Source of the DNA: Bacteroidota bacterium
GTDB taxonomy: Bacteria > Bacteroidota > Ignavibacteria > UBA10030 > UBA8401
Reading direction: 5' to 3'
Assembly (NCBI GenBank): GCA_021796275.1
Contig: JAJYOI010000035.1
Location: forward strand, 1-32,441
DNA length: 32,441 nucleotides
The notes below the pieces were generated by a model. That model saw nothing but the letters and a program-made list of their open reading frames with translations, was not told the DNA's origin and did not search any database. Numbering within the stretch: the first letter of the stretch is position 1; each line of letters starts with the position of its first letter. Shown here in pieces: positions 941 through 21,428 of this stretch. Made by a program: the position numbers and the translations under genes.

Positions 941-3900
941 TTACTTCATCAACAGCAATTTTTTCGTTTCCGTAAAGCTTCCCGCTTGCAAGCGATAAAA
1001 ATAGACGCCGCTTGAAAGACTGCTCGCATTCCATTCAACATCATACGTCCCCGGAGATTTTCGTTCATTCATAAGCACGGCAACTTCGCGCCCGAGTATA
1101 TCAAACACCTTCAGCGTCACCAATCCGGAAACAGGAATTCCAAACTGTATTCGCGTTGCGGGGTTGAAGGGATTCGGATAATTCTGCAATAGACTGAACT
1201 GTGTGGGAATATCTTTCGTCATTTCACCAGCTACTGCCGTAGCAACAGTTGTTGTGAATCTTCTCACTTCTGACCAACCACTTATGCCCTTATAGTCCTT
1301 TGCATTCACCCGCCAGTAATATGTCGTGTCATTCAGCAATGGTCCTACCGTTATAGAAGTTGTTATGATTGTCGAATCGTCATATTGCACAGCCGAAAAC
1401 ACCGGCGATGTTGATACCTGAAGACGGTACGACGTTGCCTCTATTGCGGAATTCCAATTCAGCGTCGGGTTAATTGCCAAACCTTTTGAACTATCTGCGG
1501 GCAATGTAAGTGTTGGAGCCGGAGGAATTGTCACCACAGGCGGCAAACCTGTGAGCAGCGATGCCCAGCTAATGCCCCAATTACCCGCAGCATCTTTGCC
1601 GTGAACATAGATTCCGTGCAAGTCTCCGTCATTGATCGGAGAAATCGAATGCTGCACTCTTTCGATAAGAGAATTGAACGCACCGTCTTGTGCAGACATG
1701 GTCGTCCCTCTTCCCGAAAGCATGAGAGCGACGCGGGCAACGATAAGAGAATCACTGAATTGGAAAATCCTGAAATCGGCTCCTCCGTTTTCCTTTCCGT
1801 CAAATGCCGCATGGTCCAGATGGAAAACGTGTGTTTTCCATGTATTTGTATTCTGTTTGAAGATGACCGTGGTCGAATTATATGGCGCAGAAGTTGAACT
1901 GAATTGTATGCCGAAGGAATCAAATCCGTTATCGAAATATTCTACGGCAACATAGGCATCGTAGTCACCGGAAGCGATGCTGGTGTCTGCGATGTAGATA
2001 TAGCGGCCTGAGGTGCCGTCCGTAGCGCGGGCTGCTCTTCCACTCCGATTAACAACTGAAGTCACTCCATCTGAGACATTGACGAAGTGCAGTCCATTTT
2101 CCGTGTTCGTTGCTTTGAGACGTATGCGATGCCACCCGTCAACAAAATATTCTCCGGCAGCAACATTGTTCATATCGTCCATGAGAGTGGTGGAAAAAAC
2201 CGAGTCGCTGTCAAATGCTATCGGTAACGGCACGGGACCTGCTTTATCTATCCCAAACAGCTTTCCCCATATCAGCGGATCGAGTGAATCTTTAGAAGGA
2301 AGCGGTGGCGGAGAAAATACCGTCCCAGTAAATCCGGCGATGATTTTGAGATACTGATAAGGATCGCCGGAATAATCTTCAAAGTCCCAGCCGGGCGTGA
2401 TTTCCGAATTCTCCTGCCAATCATTCAGAGAACTGATGACAACAAAGTCTGCGCCGGCCTGAGACGCAAGATCAAGTTGTTTACTGAACGTGTAACCATG
2501 CGCTCTATGAATCACTCTGTAAATACCGCGGCCAAGTTTAGTCTCATCATATCCGGGGAAGATGTTTATTGCCGCTGCCTTCTGATGTGAATGCAGAGTC
2601 GATACCAACCTCTGCGTCGCGGCGGTGACTTGGGTCCAATCAACACTATCTGTTGTCGCGGGAGTTAGCGGATGGTCCTCTATGCTGTTCAGTTGTGTTA
2701 TAGGCCACAAGTTAGCGTCAGTGCCATCCTGAATCATCCAGTATACTTTCCCTACAGCTGCTTCCACATTGGCGAAGAAGGTCTCAAGATCAGTGTAGTT
2801 CCACTTGCCTCCGAAATTGCCATAGAAGTTGAATTGATATATCGGATATCCATTTATCTTTAGATAAGCAGGATGATCTTTGAATGTTTTCAAAGCCTGG
2901 ATAGCACGGTCAGTCATGATCGTGAGATCCTTCGCCTTGTCATTATCAAAAGAAGCTTCATCAAGTATCCCTATCTTGAAATTCTCTTGTTGACTTATGT
3001 CGAGGAGCTTAGAGAACATATCTAGGTACTCCGTGCCAAAGTATCCTGTTTGACTATCGTGAAAGAGATCAACAAGCAGTCCGGAAAGCCCGGCATTCTT
3101 AGCCAATCGTATATGCCACCTCATGACATCTATATTCCGTGAATCAAAAGGTCCCAAGTAAGGATATCCTCTCGATACGGTCTTTCGCCGCCAAGTAGTT
3201 CCGGAGACTATTTCTTCTGGGTCTACAACGGTGTCAGCATTTGCCCACCAGCACCAGGGTTGGGCAATTGCATTCCCAACAACCGGCTCGCCTGAAATGT
3301 ATGTTGGCGTCCTATAGTCGAGGTGGAATTCCTGCGCAATCACGAGCGGTATTCCGGTCTTCGCCACAGTGCTGAATTGTCTCGTCGCGGAGAAGTTACC
3401 ATACCCTCCATCATTTTTTGCTCTGACACGCCAATAATAAGTTGTGCCGAGCGAAATCTCGCCTGTAGCTTTCGAAGTTACGGTAAGCGAAGAATCGTCA
3501 ATGATGGTTGTTGAAAATATAGAACTGGTAGATAACTGAAGGTGGTACGAGGTTGCACCTGATACCGCATTCCAACTGAGCGTCGTGCCCGCTTGCAGAT
3601 TTGTTGCACTGTCAGCCGGTGCAATAAGCGTCGGCGGCTGCGGTGCGGCAATAATAGTTGTGAGGCTTCCCGCCGCTGACCATCCGCTTGAACCCTTATA
3701 ATTCTTTGCATTCACCCGCCAGTAATATGTCGTGCTGTTTAGCAACGGCCCAACCTGATACGATGTCGTAGTGATCATCGAATCGTCAAACTGCAACGGT
3801 GAAAAATTCAATGACGTTGATACCTGAAGCCGGTAGGATGTCGCTCCTGCTACTGTGCTCCAGCTGAACGTCGGAAGAATGGCTATGTTGGTTGACCCAT

Positions 3901-5857
3901 TTGCTGGGGACGCAAGCATCGGTACAGAAGGTATCGCGGTCATCGGCGGTAAACTCGTGAGCAATGATGCATAGGACATAGTCCAGTTACCGGCAGCATC
4001 TTTGCCGTGAACGCAGATTCCATGAACGTCACCATCATTAATTCCAGCGATGGAATGGTATGCTTTTTCACTGAGTGAGTTGAACGCACCGTCCTGCGCC
4101 AGCATCGGAATTCCTTGCCCGGCAAGAATAACTCCTACCCGTGCAATGATAAGTGTGTCCGTATACTGAACTACTCTGAAATCAGCTCCGCCATTCTGTT
4201 GACCGGCGAACGTTGCGTGATCAAGATGGAAGATATGGGTCTTCCATGTGCCCGTGTTCTCTTTATATTTGGCAACGGAGTTGTCATATGCAGCCGTTGT
4301 AGAATTATACTCAATGCCGAAAAAGTTTGTTCCGTTATCAAAATACTCGACAACGACGTACGCATCATAATCACCCGGTGGTATTCCGGTATCGTTAATG
4401 TAGAAGTAGTGCCCTGTAACGTTATCAATCATTCGCGCAATTCTCCCCGCTCGATTGACAACTGAAGTAACCCCGTCCGTCACGCTCGGCTGGTGCAGGC
4501 CGTTTTCAATATTGGTCGTGCTGAACCTGATGTTGTGCCATCCATCAACAAAATATTCTGCGCCGGCAATGTTGCTCATGTCTTCTGTGAGTGTCGTCGA
4601 AAAAGTAGTATCGTTGTCAAACAGAATAGGTGAAGGCACCGGTCCTGCTTTATCAATCCCAAACAGTTTTCCCCAAATAAGTGGATCGAGTGAATCTTTT
4701 GAAGGAAGCGGCGGAGGGGAAAACGTGGTACCGGTAAATGAAGCAGTAATTTTCAAATATTGATACGGATCTCCGGAATAATCTTCGAAATCCCAGCCCG
4801 GCGTTATCTCCGAGTTTTCCTGCCAATCGTTGAATGAACTGACTACAACGAAGTCAGCACCGGACTGACTTGCAATATCCAGTTGTCTGCTATATGTGTT
4901 TCCATGGTCGCGATGGATATACCTCTGCGTCGAGCGTCCAAGTTTACTTTCATCGAAGCCGGGGAATATATTGACGGCGGCTTTTTTCTGATGCTGATGC
5001 AAATCTGCTATGAACGACTGAGCATAGCTGCTGTCTTGAGCCCAATACATGACGTCGGTAGTATTCGGGGCAAGAAAATGGTCCTCGATAGCATCGAGTT
5101 CCGGAATAGCCATTGCATTCTCATCGTTACCACCATCCTGGATAATCCAGAAGACGTCACCGACAGCTCTTTGTACTCGTACGAAAAAAGTGTCCAGGTC
5201 AGCATACGACCAACCACCCATTTTGCTGTAGAAGTTGAACTGATAAACAGGCTGACCGTCAATATGAAGGTATGCAGGATGATCTTTGTATTTCAGCAGA
5301 GCCTTGGTTGCCCGGTCTGTCATTATGGAAAGATTCCTTGCCTGATTATTGTCAAAGCTCGCATCGTCTTCTATGCCTATCTTAAATCCTTCTTGTTGGC
5401 TGATATCCAACAGTTGCCCAAAGCTATTGTAAGACTCCGATTGAAAGTAACCTGTTCCATCACAGTTTATGTCAACAAGAACACCAGCTAATCCGGAGTT
5501 CTTCGCAAGGCGAATATGCCATCGCTGCACGTCTGAGTTGCGAACATCAAAAGGTCCTATCATGGGATATCCCTTAGAGAGAGTGCTTCGCCTCCATGTT
5601 CCCTGCACAACATCTTCGGGATTGAAAACTGCCGCCAGGTTCTGGCGCCAGTATGTCCATGGATTTGCAAATGCCGATCCTGTATTCAGCTGGCCTGAGA
5701 TATATCGCGGAGTTCTCCACATGGTATTGAATTCCTGTGCGATAACCAGCGGAGCTGCCGTTGTGCTTTTGGTCCTGCGAACCGATTTAACAGGTTGTGA
5801 AAAAAGATTCGTACTTACTCCAAACAAGCAAATACACAAGCAAAGAAACTTTTGCAT
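941..5857 (-). CDS. Giant secreted protein with two GH99-like modules, FnIII domains and T9SS sorting tail
   Basis: The ATG at 5857 is chosen over an ATG 33 nt upstream because AAAAGGAA lies just before it and the product then starts MQKFLCLCICLFGVSTNLFSQ, a clean signal peptide. The protein is 1638 residues. Residues about 35-385 and 838-1190 are two copies of a module resembling GH99/GH71-like (endo-alpha-mannosidase-like) barrels. Each has 'IAQEF ... GPFD ... RWHIRLAK', 'INIFPG' or 'VNIFPG', and ends in 'NDWQENSEITPGWDFEDYSG'. Each is followed by about 220 residues of beta-rich, galactose-binding-like sequence. Two FnIII domains (about 645-830) follow the first half and one (about 1455-1545) follows the second. 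The last 85 residues are a T9SS C-terminal sorting domain (NYPNPFNP, GREVAVL, GVYFYRL, TKKLLLMK), so it is exported through the outer membrane and probably surface-bound or released. A role in polysaccharide breakdown is inferred; the substrate is unknown. The two halves are a whole-module duplication. Confidence 0.85.
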   Translation of the reverse strand: MQKFLCLCICLFGVSTNLFSQPVKSVRRTKSTTAAPLVIAQEFNTMWRTPRYISGQLNTGSAFANPWTYWRQNLAAVFNPEDVVQGTWRRSTLSKGYPMIGPFDVRNSDVQRWHIRLAKNSGLAGVLVDINCDGTGYFQSESYNSFGQLLDISQQEGFKIGIEDDASFDNNQARNLSIMTDRATKALLKYKDHPAYLHIDGQPVYQFNFYSKMGGWSYADLDTFFVRVQRAVGDVFWIIQDGGNDENAMAIPELDAIEDHFLAPNTTDVMYWAQDSSYAQSFIADLHQHQKKAAVNIFPGFDESKLGRSTQRYIHRDHGNTYSRQLDIASQSGADFVVVSSFNDWQENSEITPGWDFEDYSGDPYQYLKITASFTGTTFSPPPLPSKDSLDPLIWGKLFGIDKAGPVPSPILFDNDTTFSTTLTEDMSNIAGAEYFVDGWHNIRFSTTNIENGLHQPSVTDGVTSVVNRAGRIARMIDNVTGHYFYINDTGIPPGDYDAYVVVEYFDNGTNFFGIEYNSTTAAYDNSVAKYKENTGTWKTHIFHLDHATFAGQQNGGADFRVVQYTDTLIIARVGVILAGQGIPMLAQDGAFNSLSEKAYHSIAGINDGDVHGICVHGKDAAGNWTMSYASLLTSLPPMTAIPSVPMLASPANGSTNIAILPTFSWSTVAGATSYRLQVSTSLNFSPLQFDDSMITTTSYQVGPLLNSTTYYWRVNAKNYKGSSGWSAAGSLTTIIAAPQPPTLIAPADSATNLQAGTTLSWNAVSGATSYHLQLSTSSIFSTTIIDDSSLTVTSKATGEISLGTTYYWRVRAKNDGGYGNFSATRQFSTVAKTGIPLVIAQEFHLDYRTPTYISGEPVVGNAIAQPWCWWANADTVVDPEEIVSGTTWRRKTVSRGYPYLGPFDSRNIDVMRWHIRLAKNAGLSGLLVDLFHDSQTGYFGTEYLDMFSKLLDISQQENFKIGILDEASFDNDKAKDLTIMTDRAIQALKTFKDHPAYLKINGYPIYQFNFYGNFGGKWNYTDLETFFANVEAAVGKVYWMIQDGTDANLWPITQLNSIEDHPLTPATTDSVDWTQVTAATQRLVSTLHSHQKAAAINIFPGYDETKLGRGIYRVIHRAHGYTFSKQLDLASQAGADFVVISSLNDWQENSEITPGWDFEDYSGDPYQYLKIIAGFTGTVFSPPPLPSKDSLDPLIWGKLFGIDKAGPVPLPIAFDSDSVFSTTLMDDMNNVAAGEYFVDGWHRIRLKATNTENGLHFVNVSDGVTSVVNRSGRAARATDGTSGRYIYIADTSIASGDYDAYVAVEYFDNGFDSFGIQFSSTSAPYNSTTVIFKQNTNTWKTHVFHLDHAAFDGKENGGADFRIFQFSDSLIVARVALMLSGRGTTMSAQDGAFNSLIERVQHSISPINDGDLHGIYVHGKDAAGNWGISWASLLTGLPPVVTIPPAPTLTLPADSSKGLAINPTLNWNSAIEATSYRLQVSTSPVFSAVQYDDSTIITTSITVGPLLNDTTYYWRVNAKDYKGISGWSEVRRFTTTVATAVAGEMTKDIPTQFSLLQNYPNPFNPATRIQFGIPVSGLVTLKVFDILGREVAVLMNERKSPGTYDVEWNASSLSSGVYFYRLQAGSFTETKKLLLMK

Positions 5858-5970
5858 AACTGTTCCTTTTTTAGTTAAATGGTAATGCAATCAACCTCTC
5901 GCAACGCACTCTAAATTAATCCAATTGCTACTATACAGCATGTTGCCTTCCGAAAAAGCAAAACTTTGTC

Positions 5971-18778: not shown

Positions 18779-19540
18779 TTAGTTTTCAACACCCGCCTGC
18801 TCTTTTAAAGATGCAACTTCTCGTGCAGACAGAAAACGCCATCCTCCGCGTTTCAATCCTTGTGTCGTAACGCCGCCGTACTCAACGCGGTCCAGCCGTT
18901 TTACTTCGTAACCAAACGATTCAAACATTCTTCTCACTTGCCGGTTCTTTCCTTCATGAATTGCAAGCAGCACATCACGCCGCTTCGTTCCGGAAAGAAT
19001 ATCCACATGAGCAGGAGCAGTTTTTCCATCTTCAAGATGGACACCGTGCTCAATTTTCACCGCATGCTTCTCGTCAAGTCCGGTTTCAAGCGTCACGTGG
19101 TAAATCTTCGGTACATTGTGTGACGGATGCATAAGACGCGACGCCAATGCACCATCGTTGGTGAACAACAATACGCCCGTTGTCTTCCGGTCAAGCCGCC
19201 CGACGGGAAACACTCGTTCACGGGTGCGAACCAAATCGAAAACTGTTTTGCGCCCTCGTTCATCGCTCGCAGTCGTAATATAATCTTTCGGTTTATTCAG
19301 CACCAGATAAACGAGGCGCTCCTCCGCAGCAATAACTTTACTGCCAATAACGACACGATCGTTTTTCGGAGAAACTTTGGTCGCCAAATCTGTGACGACT
19401 TTTCCGTTTACTTTCACTTCGCCGGCAAGAATCAGGTTTTCCGCTTTCCTGCGCGACGCAATGCCTGCCATTGCAAGAAACCGGTTCAACCGAACAGCTT
19501 GCGGAAGAATGTTTGAATCTTTGTTTTCCACTTGCTCCAT
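18779..19540 (-). CDS. rluB: 23S rRNA pseudouridine synthase, RluB/RsuA family
   Basis: The 253-residue protein has an N-terminal S4 RNA-binding domain (about 16-65, 'VRLNRFLAMAGIASRRKAENLI' region with 'VKVNGKVV'). The catalytic domain carries Asp117 in 'VGRLDRKTTGVLLFTND', followed by 'HEGKNRQVRRMFESFGYEVKRL'. This is the pattern of RluB, which modifies a uridine in the peptidyl-transferase region of 23S rRNA. RsuA (16S) is less likely because of the S4 form and the 'TVFDLV' stretch, but the exact target is inferred. Its start overlaps the last 18 codons of scpB by 55 nt, so the two are probably cotranscribed. scpA-scpB-rluB is a very common gene order, which supports the call. Confidence 0.92.
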   Translation of the reverse strand: MEQVENKDSNILPQAVRLNRFLAMAGIASRRKAENLILAGEVKVNGKVVTDLATKVSPKNDRVVIGSKVIAAEERLVYLVLNKPKDYITTASDERGRKTVFDLVRTRERVFPVGRLDRKTTGVLLFTNDGALASRLMHPSHNVPKIYHVTLETGLDEKHAVKIEHGVHLEDGKTAPAHVDILSGTKRRDVLLAIHEGKNRQVRRMFESFGYEVKRLDRVEYGGVTTQGLKRGGWRFLSAREVASLKEQAGVEN

Positions 19541-20694
19541 CCTTTTCTCGTTTCTCCCGGAATCTCTGTTGCCGCCGATTCTTCTTCAGCCATCACAGCT
19601 TCAGCAGGTATTATGATATGTTCTATTTTCTTTTTAAAATCTCCTTCTTCTTCACTGCCAATGTCCTGAACAGGCGCTTCGGCGCGGGCTCCTGCTTTCA
19701 CCTCAGAAGGAAATTCATTTTTATCATCTTCAGCCGAGGTGAGAATCTCATCTCGCTCAGGCGAATCGCTATTTGTAGAAATATGCATTTCTTCAGGTGC
19801 GCTTGATTCAGCTTCATCCTGATGAACTTCCTGCTCGTCAACAGAAATGTGCGCCTCGTCTTCTTCATGTTGAAATGAAGGAACAACAGTGCTCGCCTCT
19901 TGAGCCGGTACGGGTTCAACTGTCGGAGATGTTTCCTGCACGGAAGGTTTTTGCGGCTTTGGTCTTCGACCCGTCACGCGAGGTGACTTTGATTTTGTAT
20001 CGAATTTTTCTTCCAGCTCTTCTTTAAATTCAATTTCCTGTTGTTCTGCCAGCAAACGCTTTTCGACTTCCAGTTCCGTTTCGCCGATGAGTTCTTCGAT
20101 CTCGCGCGGCTTCGGCAAATCGGAGATATCGTTCAAGCCAAAGTGCATCAAAAATTCTGCAGTGGTGCCGTACAAAAGAGGACGCCCCGGCGTGCTTGCC
20201 CTGCCGATGATCGTAACAAGATTTTTTTCCAACAGCGTTTTCATAATGTAATCGGCGTTCACACCGCGAATAAATTCAATCTCCGATTTTGTAATCGGTT
20301 GTTTGTAGGCAACGATGGCAAGCGTTTCGATCGCAGTCGCGGAAAGCCTCCGCCGCGCTTTCTCCTTGAGCAGCTTTCCAATCCAACCGGCATATTCCTT
20401 ACCGGTCGCAAAAGCAAATCCGCCGGCAAGCGCAATGATACGATACGGTTTCTGCATCGCGGCATATTCATGATTCAACTCCTCAATCGCGGCACGGAGA
20501 AGTTCACTGTTCGCATCGAGGCGGGCATCGGGCTGCGCATTGTCATTAAAATCATCGATGAGCATCCGGATAGTCTTCATTTCGAGCGGTTCATCTGATG
20601 CAAAGATGAGCGCCTCGACAATATTCTTCAGTGCAATCGGCACCTCGAGAATTTGCACGTGGCCGGCAGCTTCCAGGTGTTGTTCTTCGCTCAT
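19486..20694 (-). CDS. scpB: Segregation and condensation protein ScpB with a long acidic C-terminal extension
   Basis: The 402-residue protein binds ScpA as part of the SMC condensin complex. Residues about 15-190 are the conserved two winged-helix core ('IVEALIFASDEPL', 'RRRLSATAIETLAIVAYKQPITKSEIEFIRGV', 'GRPLLYGTTAEFLMHFGL'). Usual ScpB length is about 180-200 residues. Here about 200 more follow: a charged helix (200-235), a basic Pro-rich patch (236-252, 'SPRVTGRRPKPQKP'), then an acidic Glu/Ser/Asp-rich low-complexity region (260-380). The end is a short basic-aromatic segment, 'GWSKWKTKIQTFFRKLFG', which could form an amphipathic helix. The extension overlaps the rluB start. The ATG overlaps the scpA stop by 4 nt, indicating coupling. 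Confidence 0.93.
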   Translation of the reverse strand: MSEEQHLEAAGHVQILEVPIALKNIVEALIFASDEPLEMKTIRMLIDDFNDNAQPDARLDANSELLRAAIEELNHEYAAMQKPYRIIALAGGFAFATGKEYAGWIGKLLKEKARRRLSATAIETLAIVAYKQPITKSEIEFIRGVNADYIMKTLLEKNLVTIIGRASTPGRPLLYGTTAEFLMHFGLNDISDLPKPREIEELIGETELEVEKRLLAEQQEIEFKEELEEKFDTKSKSPRVTGRRPKPQKPSVQETSPTVEPVPAQEASTVVPSFQHEEDEAHISVDEQEVHQDEAESSAPEEMHISTNSDSPERDEILTSAEDDKNEFPSEVKAGARAEAPVQDIGSEEEGDFKKKIEHIIIPAEAVMAEEESAATEIPGETRKGWSKWKTKIQTFFRKLFG

Positions 20695-21428
20695 ACAAGC
20701 TCCTCCTTCGGAAGTTTGACAATAACCATCTCTCCGTACGAATCAACCTGACGAACACCGATTTGTTTTTGTCGTATCAATTCCAGCAGCGCGATGAATG
20801 TCACCACAATTTTTATTTTTTCCGTCATCGTTGAAACAAGCTCGTAAAATGTTGTCTCAACTTTCTCGTGGAAATATTCAAGGATGAACGCGATCTGCTC
20901 TTCGAGCGAAACGCTGAGCTTGGTAATTTCGTGAACATGTTTGCGCGGCATACGGTCAACGGCATATTTGAATGCTGCAATTAAATCAAACAGCGTCACG
21001 TCACGCAGAAGATTAATATCTTCCGTCCCGTCCATAATTTTCGGATCAGGTTCAAAATAAGAACGGTAATAAATTTTTTGCTGCTCACGCGCCATCCGTT
21101 CCATCTTTTCCGCCATCTCTTTATAGCGTTTGTATTCGAGCAACCGGCGCACTAACTCTGCACGCGGATCGAGCTCTTCCTCGTTCTCACCTTCAGGGCG
21201 GGGCAAAAGCATCTGCGCTTTGATTTGCATCAATTCCGCCGCCACCACGATAAATTCCCCTGCCACATCGAGATCCAATTCCTGAAGATACTGAAGATAC
21301 TCCAGGAAGTCGTTCGTAATTTTCGCAATCGGAATGTTGTAAATGTCCAGCTCGTCCCGTTTAATAAAGAACAGCAACAGGTCAAGCGGTCCCTCGAATT
21401 CCGAAAGCCGAACACGGTACACAGTCAT
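20691..21428 (-). CDS. scpA: Segregation and condensation protein ScpA
   Basis: The 245-residue kleisin bridges the SMC heads. The signature N-terminus 'VRLSEFEGPLDLLLFFIKRDELDIYNIPIAKIT' binds the SMC neck. The middle region is charged and coiled. The C-terminal winged helix near 'KIKIVVTFIALLELIRQKQI' contacts the other SMC head. Length is normal for the family. The gene overlaps scpB by 4 nt (ATGA) and starts 24 nt after the trpS stop. It acts on the nucleoid together with ScpB and with an SMC protein that is not in this window. Confidence 0.96.
   Translation of the reverse strand: MTVYRVRLSEFEGPLDLLLFFIKRDELDIYNIPIAKITNDFLEYLQYLQELDLDVAGEFIVVAAELMQIKAQMLLPRPEGENEEELDPRAELVRRLLEYKRYKEMAEKMERMAREQQKIYYRSYFEPDPKIMDGTEDINLLRDVTLFDLIAAFKYAVDRMPRKHVHEITKLSVSLEEQIAFILEYFHEKVETTFYELVSTMTEKIKIVVTFIALLELIRQKQIGVRQVDSYGEMVIVKLPKEELV

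Follow-up and report, generated by a model that had tools for sequence, protein, structure and literature searches.

A conserved amphipathic helix at the C-terminus of ScpB, encoded within the rluB overlap, as a candidate membrane anchor of condensin

The ScpB protein encoded in the window (the whole analysed stretch of DNA, 32,441 nucleotides) ends in a conserved, amphipathic tip of 18 residues, which is joined to the core by a highly variable linker, occurs in three families among those examined and is under selection in the scpB frame. From these features we infer membrane binding, an influence on condensin and an advantage for the cell. Judged from sequence, the chances are about even that ScpB of this clade carries a clade-specific C-terminal membrane-anchor helix on a long tether that is flexible and, as a rule, acidic. 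To a wider proposal we give slightly less than an even chance: the clade would possess a membrane-tethered condensin with paired ScpB helices on long tethers, the anchor would have been gained once, and a segment of 55 nt would serve both as the anchor and as the start of rluB.

The open reading frames on the minus strand of the window give scpA, scpB and rluB in series, preceded by a gene which, from its translation, we take to be trpS. The assignment of scpB is clear from the profile scores (PF04079, 165.9 bits against a cut-off of 27.4; TIGR00281, 113.2 against 89.2) and from the adjacency of scpA (PF02616), which is a trait of the family. The features of the locus are as follows.

18779..19540, minus strand: rluB-type rRNA pseudouridine synthase gene (PF00849, PF01479; TIGR00093 above cut-off)
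19486..19540, minus strand: scpB/rluB overlap of 55 nt (from the reading frame coordinates)
19529-19531, minus strand: alternative rluB start GTG, formed on a Trp codon of the ScpB tip
19538-19540, minus strand: rluB start ATG, formed on a Trp codon of the ScpB tip
19486..20694, minus strand: scpB, SMC-ScpAB subunit, 402 aa (open reading frame; PF04079, 6.9e-49; TIGR00281 above cut-off)
19489..19542, minus strand: conserved amphipathic C-terminal helix GWSKWKTKIQTFFRKLFG, residues 385-402 (conservation, hydrophobic moment, AlphaFold2 helix)
19543..19938, minus strand: variable acidic disordered linker, residues 253-384 (pLDDT mostly below 50; 37/135 identical to a congener)
19939..19998, minus strand: basic Pro-rich patch, residues 233-252 (site of SR(L/A)PHIP(K/R)(K/R) in relatives; degenerate in the window)
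20002..20109, minus strand: post-core helix, residues 196-231, PREIEELIGETELEVEKRLLAEQQ... (AlphaFold2, block pLDDT about 61-73; similar in relatives)
20110..20694, minus strand: ScpB core with two putative winged helices, residues 1-195 (Pfam 25-195; AlphaFold2 mostly confident from about residue 20)
20691..21428, minus strand: scpA, kleisin (PF02616, 3.6e-41; open reading frame; 4-nt overlap with scpB)

Two further features were noted elsewhere in the window. A tandem repeat at 568-887, which has a unit of 21/42 bp (the 21-mer in about 14 copies) and is covered by open frames on either strand, lies just past the 3' end of a gene for a large secreted-type protein, and positions 941-5890 of the minus strand encode a protein of 1649 aa with two GH99-like stretches, Ig/fn3 domains and a Por_Secre_tail sorting domain, which looks like an internal duplication.

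The PF04079 profile matches residues 25-195 of the window ScpB, covering positions 2-159 of 160, and 206 residues follow this core. In the AlphaFold2 model, which was built from an alignment of 13 sequences (4 of them tipped), the core shows helices and strands in an order that would fit two winged-helix domains, mostly with pLDDT 85-93. Beyond the core, the model gives coil at about 234-383 with pLDDT mostly below 50, a flexible link between core and tip, and a helix at 384-401, at the very end of the chain, with pLDDT of only about 50. The initial annotation had described a disordered acidic tail of 200 residues with a basic-aromatic end helix, the codons of which overlap the rluB start. The length and the acidity of the tail hold (37 D/E against 14 K/R in the linker, 148 aa when cut from 40 residues after the core), as do the end helix and the overlap, but the tail is not wholly disordered because its first 36 residues are predicted to be helical. 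The overlap comprises the last 17 codons of scpB, the stop codon and one further base.

To see how far the tip extends among relatives, one can follow the ScpB core, which was found in 93 of 100 related genomes including that of the window (20/22 in family f1 and 31/32 in f6). The tip is present in 51/51 of the f1 and f6 genomes having a core. Among the near relatives, 66 of 70 frames are complete: 48 are tipped (18 from f1, 30 from f6) and 18 untipped (one from f2, four from f3, one from f4, 11 from f5, one from f7), while 23 of the 93 core-bearing relatives, all from f2-f5 and with open frames of 230-301 aa, lay outside the frame reading. In three genomes (G008, G016, G087) contig ends split scpB, and the tip is found on another contig, where the rest of the scpB tail enters from the contig end and overlaps rluB. 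Outside the order of the window, all six ScpB frames read from family f54 carry the tip, each with an rluB start at -55; it was absent from 13 complete frames among 14 examined from the rest of the class. A GTDB-wide scan gave the tip on 3 of 75 complete named loci (80 in all), titled Bacteroidetes or Bacteroidota (L072, L073, L075). These add no species, because their last 150 residues are identical to those of L005, L009 and L023. In total, the tip was missing from 103 complete ScpB proteins, 18 from f2-f5 and f7 and 85 others.

A search at the DNA level agrees with this distribution. A degenerate tip pattern was run against 98 genomes from the order, with at most 3 mismatches, and against 391 from the class, with at most 2; within the order, matches with 0-1 mismatch were confined to the scpB ends of f1 and f6. 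At these ends most matches had 0-1 mismatch (2-3 in G040, G044 and G076), and two tips (G056, G061) missed by the pattern were found by direct reading. The f54 matches, with 1-2 mismatches in the class search, are ScpB. Two further matches with 1 mismatch (G386, G573) lie on contigs other than those of the ScpB core; in the stretches around them (L206, L214), a looser motif gave no frame at L206 and a frame of 17 residues at L214. Other matches with 2-3 mismatches were taken as chance, a control pattern also having yielded a few. Beyond the class, the search consisted of the named loci and an insensitive peptide search with a consensus of 15 residues, which gave 5 matches in 296 genomes of the phylum, all from f6 and none from f1, and is uninformative on absence elsewhere. 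Among the families examined, the tip is restricted to three.

The initial annotation would have been refuted by absence of the tail from all relatives or by a frameshift artefact. Neither is the case: a frameshift is excluded by the recurrence of the end helix in dozens of genomes, and the presence of the tip in 54 complete ScpB frames (48 from f1 and f6, the window included, and 6 from f54) led us to reject misassembly as well. Tip and tether are kept even in two genomes of 1.7 Mb (G009, G015). In a separate f6 genome, G090 (96% complete), ParB is present with no match to the ScpB core or to the tip, which may represent a loss or an assembly gap. No co-occurrence of the tip with ParB or MinD was detected in the 75 genomes of the order that are at least 90% complete: ParB occurs in 70, the five without it spanning tipped and untipped families, and MinD exceeds the family cut-off in none, with weaker matches in all 75.

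In an ScpB tree of 64 chosen rows, with the tail removed, a branch separates the 35 tipped proteins from the other 29, with a single change of label and an SH-aLRT value of 87, which is below the level starred by the program. In an earlier tree without f54, the f1 and f6 proteins did not group unaided; forcing them together gave +9.86 log-likelihood (p-AU 0.685). The tip probably had a single origin in the history of the clade, with which the tree is consistent without amounting to proof.

The last 17 residues of the tipped proteins follow, with few exceptions, the motif W..WK.K(I/V)..(F/I)(F/I/V).K(L/I/M)F, which is terminal in all 48 complete f1 and f6 frames. Counting from the end, these 48 keep W-17 in 47, W-14 in 47, K-13 in 48, K-11 in 46, F-7 in 45, K-4 in 44 and F-2 in 48; Lys at -13 is never replaced by Arg (0/48), and both lost tryptophans were swapped for Leu. 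As a hydrophobic face, the tip gives a mixed picture: positions -10, -7, -6 and -3 interchange F, I, L, V, M and Y, yet the tryptophans and F-2 are nearly fixed. In f54, position -7 is Ile in 6/6 tips and the phenylalanines of the face are changed to isoleucine or valine. Against congener G001, the core of the window protein is identical at 168/196 positions and the linker at 37/135 (27%), while the tip is identical at 18/18; the tips of G002 and G004 agree at 15/18 and 16/18.

The window tip carries a net charge of +5 and has a hydrophobic moment of 0.62, which peaks at the helical angle of 100 degrees and is reached by 161 of 20000 shuffles of its residues. The 48 tips average 0.61 with a mean charge of +4.5, and those of f54 reach 0.65-0.75 despite the altered phenylalanines. 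For comparison, the C-ends of FtsA from the same order, which are presumed to be membrane anchors by the example of E. coli FtsA, have moments of 0.55-0.69 and charges of +1 to +2 (6 of 8 loci, L194 and L195 being left out). The end helix of ScpB therefore matches these FtsA ends in amphipathicity and exceeds them in basicity. The C-ends of the 103 untipped ScpB proteins have a median moment of 0.17 and a median charge of -4; their moments are at most 0.49, and the three highest belong to ends with a net charge of -3. Those of 22 other open reading frames of the window do not exceed 0.41. The window ScpB thus has an amphipathic helix at its extreme C-terminus, as indicated by the moment and by the low-confidence AlphaFold2 helix, and a search of the window genome with the 18-residue tip gave no match besides ScpB.

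Condensin of bacteria is commonly portrayed as a soluble complex bound to the nucleoid. ScpB is dimeric in solved complexes, so each SMC-ScpAB would present two tips. We suppose that insertion of the paired tips into the inner membrane, weak and reversible, would hold the loop-extruding condensin near it, and that the tether, a sequence-insensitive spacer, would be long enough for the complex to work on DNA while being held. A weak anchor made effective by pairing within the ScpB dimer is the most economical reading of the sequences. The persistence of tip and tether in the two 1.7-Mb genomes and the exchange of both lost tryptophans for Leu also speak for an anchor; the low AlphaFold2 confidence of the end helix, the moderate tree support for a single tipped group and the finding that neither ParB nor MinD goes with the tip speak against it. 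The initial annotation had offered membrane, DNA or another condensin subunit as the target of the end. Conservation, amphipathicity and position favour the membrane, with a protein as the main rival and DNA as a possibility to which nothing points specifically.

The main and serious rival is that the tip is a short linear motif which binds a protein (SMC, ScpA, ParB, a topoisomerase or another nucleoid protein), similarly to the tip of SSB; we regard this as possible, though clearly less probable than the anchor. SSB has a variable disordered linker and a conserved short acidic C-terminal tip recruiting proteins, so the arrangement of a variable linker with conserved last residues is shared, while the ScpB tip is longer, basic and amphipathic. 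The near-fixation of W-17, W-14 and F-2, together with a Lys at -13 that is never Arg, counts against a lipid anchor, since WK.K is stricter than a generic one should need and could mean a protein partner. The tryptophans are in part constrained by their role as rluB start codons, which likewise counts against the anchor. A protein partner may also be suggested by a second motif of f6 and a part of f1, PHIP(K/R)(K/R), which is placed between core and linker as in scaffolds with several binding sites. Against it, the hydrophobic positions swap F, I, L, V and M, above all in f54, the high moment and charge suit lipids, AlphaFold2 gives no confident tip, and no partner is known. Conservation itself does not decide between an anchor and a protein-binding tip because the FtsA C-ends also look conserved.

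The second motif belongs to a conserved site, SR(L/A)PHIP(K/R)(K/R), which lies directly after the post-core helix in f6 frames among L016-L063. The form PHIP[KR][KR] occurs after the core in 35 of 70 near-relative frames, comprising 31/31 from f6 and four from f1 (L004, L005, L022, L029); f54 has PHPLS...AKIIPLKP at this place, and in the window the basic Pro-rich patch alone remains. One can guess that this site contacts DNA or SMC.

It is rather improbable that the basic-aromatic tip itself binds DNA, adding a weak non-specific contact to SMC-ScpAB. Its mean net charge of +4.5, its attachment to a DNA-organising complex and the basic patch after the core would fit such a role, but the well-conserved hydrophobic face is not needed for DNA, and the linkers, net negative in 52 of 54 proteins, would repel it.

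Since the whole tip motif falls within the scpB/rluB overlap, its conservation could stem from either frame. It might be a by-product, a sequence kept for the start region of rluB. In favour of this, a start codon (ATG, GTG or TTG) formed from the Trp codons stands at -55, at -46 or at both places in all 48 tipped genomes, and the last two residues of ScpB are doubly constrained because the conserved S4 start of RluB begins there. The substitutions indicate the opposite. In 27 disjoint pairs, drawn from 54 frames by greedy choice of the nearest core distance and not taken to be independent on the tree, changes occurred at 89/195 sites silent only in scpB, at 22/226 silent only in rluB and at 74/790 silent in neither (Fisher p 2.7e-17, with sites treated as independent). 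Per site, changes silent only in scpB thus exceed those silent only in rluB by a factor of about five, which means that selection acts on the ScpB peptide. Over all pairs, the scpB-silent changes reach 2.35 of opportunity and the rluB-silent ones 0.62. At residues -17 to -3 of the 48 rows, entropy is lowest at the second positions of scpB codons (0.516 bits) and highest at the third (1.085).

The residues of RluB across the overlap are highly variable, and in three genomes a stop in the rluB frame stands between the two starts. Among five genomes in which rluB is unable to start at -55, four retain W-17, and among six in which it is unable to start at -46, five retain W-14; within these small numbers, the use of start codons alone does not explain the tryptophans. 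The constraint is mainly on ScpB, with little sign of any on the RluB leader, and we consider an rluB by-product very improbable. Because both Trp codons of the tip provide rluB start codons, scpB and rluB are tied to each other, and no relative was met in which rluB had moved away from scpB. Nothing on this overlap was found in the open-licence literature.

Returning to the putative anchor, its tether varies strongly in length and composition. The linkers of the 54 tipped frames are 90-348 aa long, and their net charge has a median of -22. The tail beyond the core has a median length of 226 aa in 57 tipped frames, including three named records that duplicate tails of genomes already counted, against 60 aa in 103 untipped ones; this survey left out 10 frames with contig-end cuts or partial core matches (L015, L021, L070, L068, L085, L091, L131, L146, L082, L230). 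The earlier view that ScpB typically ends sooner is correct for the medians, but tail length alone is not special, because nine untipped frames have tails of at least 150 aa.

Acidic ends are common on ScpB without the tip. Long acidic tails of 163-388 aa were seen on tip-less proteins at L219, L220 (f7), L222 (f59) and L227 (f17), that of L227 containing a TDDDE repeat. A Fibrobacter ScpB (L089:5995-7230) has an unrelated acidic tail of 250 aa ending in KKGFFQRLKKKKADPDEIDL, possibly an independent basic-aromatic end.

Linker charge is not essential, since two relatives with small genomes (L022, L029) keep the tip intact although their short linkers are net positive (+3 and +6). The initial annotation suggested that the acidic part inhibits the end. 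Such inhibition, with the linker folding onto the basic tip until the complex binds DNA or membrane, would suit the fact that linker and tip are oppositely charged in most proteins, but is very doubtful in view of these two relatives and of the long acidic tails without a tip in other families. A spacer is the best reading of the acidic stretch.

Thus, the window protein resembles ScpB of SMC-ScpAB in its core domains, the adjacency of scpA and the profiles above cut-off, and differs from it in the long tether and the conserved amphipathic helix; no description of such a tail tip was found in the open-licence literature, and the passages available from one paper (PMC7055376) contain nothing on an ScpB tail. 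Known membrane-bound proteins offer partial parallels. MinD has a C-terminal membrane-targeting sequence, an amphipathic helix at the extreme C-terminus. FtsA shares with the window ScpB the helix at the extreme C-terminus and, within the order, its moment. In contrast to both, the ScpB helix belongs to a condensin subunit, sits on a tether of 90-348 residues and is more basic, and its membrane binding is a prediction.

Among proteins of the chromosome, RocS of Streptococcus pneumoniae is, according to the parts of the paper available, a segregation protein whose C-terminal amphipathic helix binds membrane only with the help of oligomerisation or multivalency (PMC11500499). Unlike ScpB, it is not a condensin subunit; it contains a coiled coil and a domain for DNA binding, and no disordered linker serves as its spacer. 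The function of Noc, a ParB paralogue, is proposed to have been gained by grafting of an amphipathic helix onto ParB, as stated in the accessible part of PMC7333895. This nucleoid protein with a grafted terminal helix for membrane binding resembles the proposed ScpB arrangement, although its helix is N-terminal and it is a DNA-binding protein of the ParB type, not condensin. MatP, a chromosome organiser, binds lipid according to the abstract of PMC6538776.

The tip of ScpB clearly exemplifies selection on a peptide that is encoded in an overlap containing the start codons of the next gene. If the conserved anchor of ScpB is true, the effect of loop extrusion tied to the membrane would become testable by moving or deleting 18 residues.
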